From: Pseudoalteromonas ulvae UL12
Lineage (GTDB): Bacteria > Pseudomonadota > Gammaproteobacteria > Enterobacterales > Alteromonadaceae
DNA: 64,000 nt
NCBI RefSeq assembly: GCF_014925405.1
Contig: NZ_AQHJ01000035.1
Location: 434,001 to 498,000, forward strand
Direction of reading: 5' to 3'
The translations under genes and the position numbers were made by a program. The number at the start of each line of letters is the position of its first letter. Positions within the stretch are counted from its first letter, which is position 1. Under the pieces are notes generated by a model. That model worked only from the letters and a program-made list of their open reading frames with translations, made no database searches and was not told where the DNA came from. Below, piece by piece: positions 31,533-34,976 of this stretch.

Positions 31533-32486
31533 CTAAGGCATCAGCATTTGTTCACACTGCTCAATCTTGTCCCGCTCTTGATAGTGGTTTGCATTCAGAC
31601 CTAGTAGTTGGGGTAAGGTTGCTGAAATACAAATTGACGATAAAGTGCCAACCACAATACCGCTAAACAGTGCCAACGAAAATCCCGCAAGCGGTGGCCC
31701 CGCTAATAACCAAATTGATGCTATGGTTGCAAGGGTCGTCCCTGACGTGATTAAGGTGCGGCTGAGGGTTGAAGATATCGCTTGATTGATGATTTGCCCT
31801 AAAGGATTTGGCCCCTCAGGTTGTGTAGTGGTGCGCATTAATTCGCGCATGCGATCTGCGACAATAATAGAGTCATTTAAAGAATAACCGATTATGGCGA
31901 GCAGGCTGGCCAAAACGGTGAGATCAAACTCTATTTGCAACCAAGCAAATATGCCAAGCACCAACACAATATCATGAAATAGAGCCGCAACCGCCCCGAC
32001 GGCTAAGCGCCACTCAAAACGTAGCGCCAAGTAAATCAGCACCATGATTACTGCACTGAACATTGCCAGCCCACCTTGTTCGAATAACTCTTCCCCCACT
32101 TGCGCCCCGATGAAATTTGCTTCCAGTAAGGTCAGTTGCTCTTGATGAATCTGATTGAGCTCTGCAAACCAGCCTTGCTCTGATTGACCGCTAGCGTCGA
32201 GGTTTTGCCGCACAATAAAGTGGTGCTGATCGGCGCTGCTGACTTTTAGACCTTGCGATTGTGCTTTGCCGAGTATCTGGGCAATTGAATGTGCGACTTC
32301 GCTGCGCTCAAGCGGCTGCTCAGATTGAAACTCAGTGATAAATCCGCCATTAAACTCGATACTAAAATTGAGCTTATGTGTCATTAAGCCAAACACCGCT
32401 ATGCTCATCAATAAAAACGACAGACACAGCCCGATGATACGAAGTTTGGTAGGGAAAGATTGAGCGGTTAATTGTTTAAAAATCAT
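31533..32486 (-). CDS. secF: Protein translocase subunit SecF (SecF2)
   Basis: 317 residues from ATG 32486 (GGAG upstream), overlapping the secD stop as ATGA. Six membrane helices with a periplasmic P4 domain after helix 1. Family marks: NFSIEFNGGFITEF, GAQVGEELFEQGG, LALRFEWRLAVGAVAALFHDIVLVLG (core RFEWRLA and HD), IGYSLNDSIIVADRMRE, TSGTTLATIA. With SecD it pulls exported proteins from SecYEG using an ion gradient. Not next to yajC/tgt, so this is the additional SecDF2-type set. Its 3' end is duplicated at 28158-28291. Confidence 0.95.
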   Translation of the reverse strand: MIFKQLTAQSFPTKLRIIGLCLSFLLMSIAVFGLMTHKLNFSIEFNGGFITEFQSEQPLERSEVAHSIAQILGKAQSQGLKVSSADQHHFIVRQNLDASGQSEQGWFAELNQIHQEQLTLLEANFIGAQVGEELFEQGGLAMFSAVIMVLIYLALRFEWRLAVGAVAALFHDIVLVLGIFAWLQIEFDLTVLASLLAIIGYSLNDSIIVADRMRELMRTTTQPEGPNPLGQIINQAISSTLSRTLITSGTTLATIASIWLLAGPPLAGFSLALFSGIVVGTLSSICISATLPQLLGLNANHYQERDKIEQCEQMLMP

Positions 32487-34336
32487 AATGTTTCTCCAGC
32501 TGAGTGAGCACGAGTAGGGCTGTTTTTTGGGGCGCGATAGAGCCAAAAGCTCAGTGTTTTGGCAACAAATACTCCAGTGAAAAGACTGGTCAAAATGCCG
32601 AGGCCAAGAGTGAGTGCAAACCCTTTGATTGGACCGTAACCGATTGAATACAAGATAACCGCAGTGAGGAGTGTGGTGATGTAGGCATCGACGATTGAAT
32701 GGAATGCTTTGTTATAACCTGTTTTGAGAGCCAGCAATGGGCTGCGGCCTAAGGTTTGTTCTTCTTTAATTCGTTCAAAAATAATCACGTTGGTATCCAC
32801 CGCCATGCCTATGGTCAGCACGAGTCCGGCAATGCCGGGCAGTGTCAATACGGCACCCGGCAATAACGACATTAAACCAATCAAGCAGATTAAATTAAGT
32901 AGCAAGACAGTGTTTGCTATCCAGCCCATTTTGCGATACCACAGCGCCATAAAGGCAAATGTAATCGCGAGACCGAGTGCTAAAGCAGCAAAGCCATTTT
33001 CGATATTGGCTTGGCCAAGGCTTGGGCCAATGGTTTGCTGGTGGACAATGGTCACAGGCGCAATTAATGAACCAGCTCTGAGTAATAACGCTAATTCTTG
33101 TGCCGCTTGAGGGCTGTGCATATTGGTGATGCTAAAACGACTCCCGAGTACGGAGGTAATCGTAGCCACATTGATTACCTTGCTTTTTTTAACACTGTTG
33201 CCGTGTTGATCTTTGTAGTATTCAGAAAACACCGTTGCCATAGGTTGGCCGACGTTCTTTTTGGAAAAAGCAGTCATTTTAGTTGCGCCAATGCCGTCGA
33301 GTTGCAATTGCACGGCGGGTTTTCCCATTTCATCTCGGCTCGCTTGTGCTCCTTGAATATGTTGGCCCGATAACACTACGTTTGGATTAAGTGAAAGGCT
33401 GCTGCCATCCTCCAGAGTATAACGAGTGCCACCGATAGTCTGGAGTGCATGAAAATCAAGGGAAGCAGTCGCGCCAATGATGCGTTTGGCAGCAGTCGGA
33501 TCTTGAACGCCAGGTAGCTCAACGCGAATTTTATGGCTCCCTTGTCGTTGAGTGACCGCTTCGGTGATCCCTAATTCGCTAATGCGCCCACGAAGTGTGG
33601 TAATGGCTTGTTGCATCACTTGCTGATGAAATGCTTGCTGAGCTTGCGGGTTGAAAAACAAGTTAACACCGCTACTGTTTGTTTCACTGCTCAAATCAGT
33701 AAAGGTTTGTTTTAAATCTTTGATGACTAAAGCGAGGTTATCATTGGCTTGACTGACATGAATCACAACCTGCTGCGCATTATTGAGCTCAATCCGTGCG
33801 CCGCGCACCTGATGGTGACGTAAAGCGCTTTTTGTTTGCTGCTTAACTTGGGTGATGCGCTCATTCAGGGCGTGATCGCTGTCGACCTCTAATACAAACA
33901 GCACGCCACCGTTTAGGTCGAGGCCCAGTTTGATAGGCGCTAAGCCTAATGCCTGAAGCCAATATGGGCTGGTTGCTTTGCTGACTATTTTTGATTCAAA
34001 ATCAGTAGGATAATGCTGATGAAGCCAGTTTAATGCTGCTGCATTTTGGTTACTATTTTCCAAAGTCAGTTGCAAGGTATTACCAGCTTGCTTAGCCTGG
34101 CTGACAGTAAACCCTTGTTGATTTAATTTGTCTTTGAGTGTTATTAGCGACAGGCTGCTTGTTTGGGGAGAGGTGGCACTGACGATAAGGTTATTTTGTT
34201 CTGGATAAAGATTGGGCAACGCGCAAATAGCTAAAAGTAATAAAGTGAAAATCATCACTAAAGTGGGTAACCATTTGCGTGGTTGGGTGCGGTTTACATC
34301 AGCCTGCTTGGCTGAAAAGTTGGGCAACGAATTCAT
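32483..34336 (-). CDS. secD: Protein translocase subunit SecD (SecD2)
   Basis: 617 residues, full length. N-terminal helix, large periplasmic P1 domain (~50-440) including LGLDLNGGVLFVLEVD and RGRISELGITEAVTQRQG, then five helices with PGIAGLVLTIGMAVDTNVIIFERIKEE (DTNV proton/sodium pathway), GYGPIKGFALTLGLGI. Works with SecF in late steps of protein export. Start is preceded by AAAAAGAGAAAC, the same GAGAAACATTATG context as secF. Lies 157 bp after the VemP-like gene, on the same strand, implying vemP-secD-secF organisation. Confidence 0.95.
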   Translation of the reverse strand: MNSLPNFSAKQADVNRTQPRKWLPTLVMIFTLLLLAICALPNLYPEQNNLIVSATSPQTSSLSLITLKDKLNQQGFTVSQAKQAGNTLQLTLENSNQNAAALNWLHQHYPTDFESKIVSKATSPYWLQALGLAPIKLGLDLNGGVLFVLEVDSDHALNERITQVKQQTKSALRHHQVRGARIELNNAQQVVIHVSQANDNLALVIKDLKQTFTDLSSETNSSGVNLFFNPQAQQAFHQQVMQQAITTLRGRISELGITEAVTQRQGSHKIRVELPGVQDPTAAKRIIGATASLDFHALQTIGGTRYTLEDGSSLSLNPNVVLSGQHIQGAQASRDEMGKPAVQLQLDGIGATKMTAFSKKNVGQPMATVFSEYYKDQHGNSVKKSKVINVATITSVLGSRFSITNMHSPQAAQELALLLRAGSLIAPVTIVHQQTIGPSLGQANIENGFAALALGLAITFAFMALWYRKMGWIANTVLLLNLICLIGLMSLLPGAVLTLPGIAGLVLTIGMAVDTNVIIFERIKEEQTLGRSPLLALKTGYNKAFHSIVDAYITTLLTAVILYSIGYGPIKGFALTLGLGILTSLFTGVFVAKTLSFWLYRAPKNSPTRAHSAGETL

Positions 34337-34341
34337 AATGT

Positions 34342-34491
34342 TTCTCTTTTTGCGCCATCAACAAGCATGCAATAGCGATAACGCTCAACATGTAATTGCA
34401 GATAGCAAAAATAAGGATATCTCACTGGCAAGGTGCAACGTTTATTGACGCGCACTGCAAGTTAAATCGATTAAATTTATTTAAAAGAAAA
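34342..34491 (-). promoter_or_regulatory. Possible mRNA switch masking the secD ribosome binding site
   Basis: In the transcript, UUUUCUUUU just after the VemP-like stop (34491-34483) can pair over nine bases (one G-U) with AAAAGAGAA (34350-34342), which contains the secD Shine-Dalgarno region. A ribosome stalled at the end of the upstream gene would cover the first arm and free the site. This mirrors the described VemP control; the pairing is my own reading and is A-U rich. Confidence 0.45.
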
Positions 34492-34493
34492 GG

Positions 34494-34976
34494 TTATGAA
34501 TAATTAGTGTGGCAGCCGCTGTAGAGTCGGTTTGATTCGTGCCAACCACTAATGCGGGATTTGGCTCGGCGGTAAATATGAATAAACCATAATGGAATTG
34601 GCCGATGGGCAATTAAGATGAGCATTGATAGCAGAGCAAAGACCCAGATAAAAAATTCAATCACTAACCAGTAAATCGGGTTCACTTGGCTTGGGTATAA
34701 AAAAGTGGATGGACTGGCTGAGCGTATTTCAGGAATCATTGCCGCAGCAGGTTGTTGTTCGTTAACGTTGCTTACAGCAAGTTGTATAGGGCGCTCTGAT
34801 GAGTTAGAAAGGTCTAGATTGGGTAACGGCGCAGCATGTTTATATTGACTGTGTAGTTGTGCGGCAAAGCTTTCGGTAAAGGCGTGCTCAAGCGCAGTGC
34901 GGTCATTGATTTGTTCGCAAAAGAACAATGCAATACTCACTAATAATAAACTTATCGTACGCCAAACAGCTTTCAT
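34494..34976 (-). CDS. vemP: VemP-like export-monitoring arrest peptide upstream of secDF2
   Basis: 160 residues, close to Vibrio VemP (159). N-terminal signal sequence (MKAVWRTISLLLVSIALFFC), a poorly conserved middle, a second hydrophobic stretch (IYWLVIEFFIWVFALLSMLI), and the C-terminus SRISGWHESNRLYSG. As I recall VemP ends with RISGWKETNAMYVAL, where Trp143 is key and stalling occurs at Gln156. Here Trp145, Glu147, Asn149 and Tyr152 align, putting the stall near codon 158, two codons before the stop. Gene order vemP-secD-secF is the same. Low Sec activity would prolong stalling and turn on secDF2. The internal hydrophobic segment should be checked against Vibrio proteins. Identification rests on motif and context. 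Confidence 0.75.
   Translation of the reverse strand: MKAVWRTISLLLVSIALFFCEQINDRTALEHAFTESFAAQLHSQYKHAAPLPNLDLSNSSERPIQLAVSNVNEQQPAAAMIPEIRSASPSTFLYPSQVNPIYWLVIEFFIWVFALLSMLILIAHRPIPLWFIHIYRRAKSRISGWHESNRLYSGCHTNYS

Follow-up and report, generated by a model that had tools for sequence, protein, structure and literature searches.

A diverged VemP-family peptide upstream of the second secD-secF pair of Pseudoalteromonas ulvae, with relatives outside Vibrio

The closest described counterpart of the element reported here is VemP of Vibrio alginolyticus. As described in four papers (PMC5449182, PMC7897499, PMC11470409, PMC7793623), VemP is a peptide of about 160 residues with a signal-like N-terminus, an arginine about 72 residues before the stall and the motif R-I-S-G-W-x-E-x-N-x-x-Y near the stop, encoded upstream of secD2-secF2 with a stem that hides the secD2 ribosome-binding site. 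Its Arg-85 is required for regulated release (PMC7793623, PMC11470409), and its Lys144 contacts U747 (PMC5449182). Its conservation has been presented as specific to Vibrio species (PMC11470409), and the available main text of a study reporting 339 VemP-like sequences names VemP genomes from Vibrio only (PMC10987492). For Alteromonas, that study describes a peptide with an RGPP arrest motif ahead of secDF2, and arrest and induction have been demonstrated for uDF_RQH_Enterobacterales of Alteromonas naphthalenivorans, an upstream open reading frame (uORF) of a second secDF pair with a stem-loop over the Shine-Dalgarno sequence (SD) and an RGPP arrest motif (PMC10987492). MifM of Bacillus subtilis carries R-I-x-x-W in its arrest motif together with a DEED arrest tail, and controls yidC2 (PMC7897499). 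Our literature search found no report of an arrest peptide in Pseudoalteromonas, although an earlier publication of VemP outside Vibrio is possible, for example in the supplement of PMC10987492.

We analysed a 64,000-nucleotide stretch of the P. ulvae UL12 genome (hereafter the window), for which an initial annotation made from the sequence alone had proposed a VemP-type peptide in a 160-codon ORF before a second secD-secF pair. The ORF list and the sequence confirm this arrangement, in the order uORF-secD-secF, with all features on the minus strand. The uORF (34494..34976) has an ATG start and encodes 160 amino acids plus a stop, with the C-terminus SRISGWHESNRLYSGCHTNYS (its end is also written ...KSRISGWHESNRLYSGCHTNYS). 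Its stop lies 157 nt from the start of secD2 (32483..34336; 617 amino acids; assigned by Pfam, NCBIfam and a SecD tree), after which comes secF2 (31533..32546; Pfam and NCBIfam), listed with a TTG start although the true start may be internal. SecD2 scores 372.5 bits against TIGR01129 (cut-off 244.4) and 713.6 bits against NF009545, just under the cut-off of 728. Two secD genes of the genome exceed the TIGR01129 cut-off, the window copy and one elsewhere (locus L001) that is preceded by a yajC-like ORF. Codons 1-20 of the uORF, MKAVWRTISLLLVSIALFFC (34917..34976), resemble an N-terminal signal or anchor sequence: judged by eye rather than by a signal predictor, residues 1-19 are basic and then hydrophobic, and no canonical cleavage or lipobox site was seen in codons 1-20. 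A Pfam match of the uORF to DUF3533 (E=0.00055, 19.4 bits, cut-off 27.6) was discounted, as it probably reflects a membrane segment.

To place the uORF relative to VemP, we used profiles built without any sequence of f1, the GTDB family of the window, and scored all 561 window ORFs of at least 40 amino acids together with 400 shuffles. Every f1-free profile ranked the uORF first among the 561 ORFs, with E=0.003 for ten canonical VemP sequences (next ORF 2.9), 1.2e-7 for 29 Vibrionaceae sequences, 1.2e-15 for 43 other non-f1 sequences and 4.2e-13 for all 72 (best of 400 shuffles 0.12); the test is not wholly independent, because the profile used to find its loci included the window clade. We took family f21 as the Vibrionaceae, holding canonical VemP, because its locus L115 encodes the published VemP sequence: a 159-residue protein with HRISGWKETNAMYVALNSQ at 138-156, in agreement with the published numbering. 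Among PDB sequences, the published motif as a query retrieves the VemP chain 5nwy_s; a phmmer search of the PDB with the window protein gave no relevant match, VemP included. A single-query search of 5.8 billion proteins yielded four close relatives among 18 candidates, which is why we turned to genomes and looked for relatives there by position and profile match. A second vemP beside another secDF copy had been named beforehand as an observation that would speak against the proposal; no second VemP-like gene was found in the window's genome at E<=10 among 24 candidates scored.

The arrest-motif core of the uORF, as delimited by alignment and profile, comprises codons 141-152, RISGWHESNRLY (34521..34556). 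It has the R, W, N and Y of the RxxxWKxxNxxY-like consensus (PMC10987492), with His at the Lys position. Over the 19-residue stretch H138-Q156 eight residues are identical to VemP (8/19 also against the full motif HRIxGWKETNAMYVxLNxx of PMC7897499), and the V, L and N on the side of the peptidyl transferase centre (PTC) are not matched. The initial annotation had given VemP as ending in ...NSSQ, which was incorrect, since VemP reads HRISGWKETNAMYVALNSQ (H138-Q156 of 159 amino acids), exactly as in L115. Its claim of an equal distance between motif and stop is nearly right, with eight residues from Tyr to stop in the window and nine in L115. The aligned PTC-proximal tail, SGCHTNYS (codons 153-160; 34497..34520), does differ from that of VemP, as had been stated, but the difference is not private to the window, because many non-Vibrio members have another tail, often ending in ...TYHS or TYHA, of which the window's HTNYS looks like a variant. 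Alignment to VemP Q156 places the predicted P-site codon at N158 (34503-34505), which corresponds to the sixth residue past the motif Tyr (Tyr+6).

Compared with the available descriptions of VemP, the window uORF shares a signal-like N-terminus, the length, the motif, the upstream arginine (relative to the predicted stall), the position before secD2-secF2 and the stem (computed here). It departs from VemP in having His for Lys144, S-G-C-H-T-N for V-A-L-N-S-Q and a stop one residue closer, and in carrying a hydrophobic segment at residues 104-122, whereas the short hydrophobic segment beside VemP Arg-85 is not evident. The arginine, Arg85 (34722..34724), sits 73 residues before N158, and VemP Arg-85 sits 71 before Q156. 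Among 92 secD-linked peptides, 89 have an Arg 68-76 residues before Tyr+6, compared with 37/92 and 18/92 in the flanking bins; this bin was picked with the 71 residues of VemP already in view, and related sequences enter the count many times. A counterpart of Arg85 is absent in four relatives of the window clade (P0002-P0004 and G494), so that its presence in the window may be a coincidence. The Lys144 equivalent, His in the window, is Gln in P0003, P0004 and G494, and Lys is kept in 82/83 secD-linked loci with the strict motif.

The segment of codons 104-122 (34611..34667) reaches a Kyte-Doolittle 19-mer mean of 2.75, the highest of 97 rows (the window being counted twice), and basic residues come after it. 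Window-clade sequences occupy the six highest rows (2.05-2.75; overall median 0.98), and four non-clade rows also reach 1.6. In every clade row, the last residue of the segment lies 36 positions ahead of the predicted site at Tyr+6. We infer that the peptide forms an N-in, C-in hairpin, which at the stall would place this membrane-grade segment close to the SecY entrance. The hydrophobic segment and the loss of Lys144, neither of them noted in the initial annotation, make the clade unusual.

Across five clade rows, which are 54-99% identical to the window, R-I-S-G-W-x-E-S-N-x-x-Y-x-G-C is invariant. Comparison with the G494 orthologue (61% nucleotide identity) gives pN 0.161 and pS 0.713 over codons 89-160, a loose middle (codons 46-88, pN 0.523) and pN/pS 0.34 for the whole uORF with dS saturated. 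The C-terminal protein sequence is thus under strong purifying selection, and this result together with the profile and shuffle test places the likeness to VemP beyond chance. By sequence, place and computed RNA design, the window uORF is a diverged member of the VemP family and a structural variant of it.

In the computed fold of the free RNA, the secD AUG region pairs with codons 159-160 and the stop (34494..34502), and the secD SD region (34342..34350, inside AAAAAGAGAAA) pairs with the anti-SD tract UUUUCUUUU shortly past the uORF stop (34483..34491). The fold of 34300-34510 has z=-3.5, and 0/200 shuffles were as stable. When a ribosome is modelled by removing 16 nt from the first base of the P-site codon, an assumed footprint, the mean unpaired probability of the SD stays closed at 0.07 with P-site 157, the value of the free RNA, and opens to 0.27 with P-site 158, 0.47 with 159 and 0.46 with 160. 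Among 106 loci (5/111 without a usable secD start were left out, and starts were picked by rule), pairing of the SD/AUG with the uORF-stop region averages 6.7, compared with 2.6 in spacer shuffles. It lies above the locus's own shuffle mean in 83/106 and above all ten shuffles in 41, although ten shuffles per locus make these per-locus counts coarse; for the window spacer 1/10 shuffles paired as well.

A general anti-SD rule for all loci was rejected on the basis of swaps between families. The SD/post-stop duplex has a mean of -7.8 kcal/mol in its own context against -5.8 kcal/mol in swaps, with a median rank of 0.18 over 106 loci and 40 loci within 5%, of which 25 belong to the 39 of f1; in f2, f7 and f9 no locus ranks within 5%. 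The f1 median rank is 0.01 (39 loci), with the window at 0.060 and G494 at 0.000, and the pairing occurs in both G000 and G494 despite differing spacers. The anti-SD element is therefore clear in the window lineage and present at many loci, but not universal. Overall, these data support an RNA architecture that fits arrest-dependent induction.

The initial annotation had placed the family outside Vibrio, which is borne out by loci in Pseudoalteromonas and other families. At E<=0.01 profile matches occur in 87/394 genomes of the order and in 19/114 genera; they were found in 77/112 genomes with two or more secD genes compared with 10/282 others. All ten of the latter are linked to DedA or S41 genes, and inspection showed the match of G202, among the 77, to be false, L119 being its only one. 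We examined 108 loci, with a SecD ORF downstream in 93, the strict motif in 92 and both in 83; they include three false matches (L028, L107 and L119) that were left out of the profile test and of the pairing, duplex-swap, hydrophobicity, Arg, Lys and family counts, and two weak second matches (G122 and G176) lie outside them. The 93 secD-linked loci represent 92 genomes in nine GTDB families, eight besides that of the window. SecD neighbourhood and RNA pairing played no part in the locus search. Conservation of the motif is partly a matter of construction, because the search profiles contain the window clade (5/5 rows in A1, 4/24 in A2). All tallies count related sequences many times, and misses are possible since the large searches scored only part of the first-look candidates (9 or 4 per genome).

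Within Pseudoalteromonas, 24/39 genomes carry two secD genes (the window's own included), and all 24 encode a related uORF before the second copy: one of the window type, 18 with Lys and five without Trp, with the VemP core in 19. Four of the five Trp-less uORFs were missed by the profile and found by reading upstream of secD. None of the 15 single-secD Pseudoalteromonas genomes has a profile match adjoining secD. Relatives in named records (29 confirmed of 116 pattern matches, with downstream genes read for part of them only) include P. haloplanktis, P. lipolytica, P. prydzensis, Litorilituus, Colwellia, Psychromonas and Photobacterium. An unrooted tree of 46 SecD rows separates 29 VemP-linked SecD2, Vibrio included, from 17 SecD1 with a branch support of 100/100, and places the window SecD2 as sister to that of G494. 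One genome taken as Vibrionaceae (G414) has two different VemP-type uORFs (L072 and L073), each before a secD; two Vibrio genomes with two such uORFs are likewise noted in PMC10987492.

Variant cores also occur at the second secD. Trp-less uORFs were observed in 14 Pseudoalteromonas genomes and one other genus (L149-L161, L163 and L213) with the pattern R[PA]xxGx[IL]xxC[KQ]xANLx[YF] or near it (KA/RP in L149/L213); place and tail are similar in all of them. The Trp-less Pseudoalteromonas uORFs share with the window their place, a similar upstream module, [KQ]xANLx[YF] and, in many, an LTY-type tail, but R[PA]xxGx[IL]xxC replaces R-I-S-G-W. In seven two-secD genomes that the profile did not match, we inspected the sequence ahead of the second secD, which revealed RAPP in three (two f1 genera), a Trp-less core in one and GGWKESNLRF in one; no recognised motif was seen there in the remaining two. 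The uORFs ending in RAPP (L206, L208 and L209) come from two other f1 genera and resemble the published Alteromonas type. Three further second-secD uORFs (L210, L211 and L212, from f15, f6 and f25) are possibly additional arrest-core variants; L211 has GGWKESNLRF, and in L210 and L212 the likeness is limited to the upstream module or to a tail reading YRFSQ. That the large searches missed L211 and the Trp-less uORFs reflects partial scoring or divergence.

Based on these comparisons, we consider it likely that the uORF controls secD2-secF2 through a VemP-family arrest peptide that monitors Sec, the peptide probably jamming its own ribosome when export fails and thereby switching on the second SecDF. 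In the free mRNA, the secD2 SD and AUG would be held in the computed stem with the last uORF codons and the post-stop bases. Slow export of the nascent peptide would let the C-terminal motif stall the ribosome at about codon 158, covering one arm of the stem so that secD2F2 could be translated. With SecDF1 and SecYEG working, by analogy with VemP, force on the nascent chain would free the stall and the stem would re-form. For the window clade, the stall would leave a stop-transfer-like segment close to the tunnel exit or SecY entrance, and release may need membrane insertion of this segment and not through-translocation alone. Of the reading in the initial annotation, the data support homology to VemP, the place before a second SecDF, a fitting RNA design and occurrence outside Vibrio; that ribosomes arrest, where they do so, how export or insertion would release them and whether Na+ acts as the trigger are predictions, and the P-site in particular is positioned by alignment to VemP. 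Against VemP-type gating stand the loss of the Lys144 and of the V151, L153 and N154 side, with only 8/19 arrest-window residues kept, the missing Arg in four clade relatives, and an RNA element that is not universal and whose duplex in the window itself ranks only 0.060, with 1/10 spacer shuffles pairing as well.

These losses could also mean that arrest has been lost or weakened in the clade, leaving the peptide as a relic or as a small membrane protein with two segments that would act in trans (SecDF being one conceivable target). The gain of a membrane-grade segment and the four relatives that lack the Arg point the same way, but the invariant core in five clade rows and the SD/post-stop pairing maintained in G000 and G494 despite different spacers do not, and Lys is replaced in some other linked uORFs too; we regard such a loss as improbable. 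Plain translational coupling, in which any ribosome terminating on the uORF opens the stem, no sequence-specific arrest occurs and the peptide is kept for another reason, is somewhat less improbable, though still unlikely. It would account for the pairing of the secD AUG with codons 159-160 and the stop, which a terminating ribosome would open, and for the larger computed opening with P-sites 159 and 160 than with 158. Against coupling stand the strong purifying selection on the C-terminal peptide and its match to an arrest family across many families, and basal coupling and arrest can coexist.

Very improbable, in our assessment, is a peptide of another arrest class (RAPP/RQH, MifM or SecM) that came to resemble VemP by convergence. 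Replacement does happen, given the RAPP peptides before the second secD in other f1 genera, and MifM shares R-I-x-x-W. Nevertheless, the window uORF lacks the RGPP motif of the A. naphthalenivorans peptide and the C-terminal (R/Q/H)-(A/G/D)-(P/G/S)-(P/G) of RAPP/RQH peptides, and has no RAGP or acidic tail. It matches neither RIxxWIxxxxxMNxxxxDEED upstream of yidC2 (MifM) nor FxxxxWIxxxxGIRAGP upstream of secA (SecM), no homology to MifM was found, and many intermediates link it to canonical VemP in graded similarity.

VemP-like peptides were also observed before other genes. In family f18, 15/197 genomes (12/154 genera) encode a GW[KQ]xSNxxY peptide with the motif close to the C-terminus and, in most, LTYHS or a similar sequence after it, and 15/15 lie directly before a DedA gene (L185-L199, four of these places being also numbered L060-L063). 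Among annotated E. coli genes, yqjA is the closest match to this DedA gene, at 73% identity. An Arg lies 72-75 residues before Tyr+6 in 12/15 of these, and by eye the post-stop bases of L186 and L189 are complementary to the ribosome-binding site and AUG. Our literature search found no report of an arrest peptide at yqjA, and its matches for ribosome stalling at dedA were unrelated by title. VemP-like uORFs with W[KRH][DE]xN stand directly before S41-peptidase genes in several families, Pseudoalteromonas included (L064-L067, L106, L108, L162 and L168; two assigned by Pfam, the remainder by likeness); by eye, 8-10 post-stop bases pair perfectly with the next SD at L064, L106 and L108, and six at L066. 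At L097, taken as Vibrionaceae, a VemP-type uORF precedes a ChaA-like cation/proton antiporter (322.7 bits, below the model cut-off of 505) and then a DedA-like ORF.

VemP-type sensors, best known from Vibrio, thus turn out to be widespread and varied. More tentatively, VemP may belong, as a single branch, to a large and ancient family of force-sensing arrest peptides. Such a family would retain the signal, the RNA switch and the Arg some 72 residues upstream, with the arrest core rewritten and the target swapped: mostly secD2F2, yqjA/dedA in one family, S41 genes in others and a chaA-like gene once. The window clade would be a further step, rebuilt around a membrane-insertion segment with a core that lacks VemP Lys144. 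If this is right, a supposedly Vibrio-specific regulator is part of a widespread family with many natural variants. With these variants one could test directly how most of an arrest core can change without loss of function, which residues the PTC requires, and whether the peptide can sense the insertion of a hydrophobic segment in place of translocation. The dedA and S41 cases would extend control by Sec-monitoring peptides to genes that are not part of the Sec machinery.
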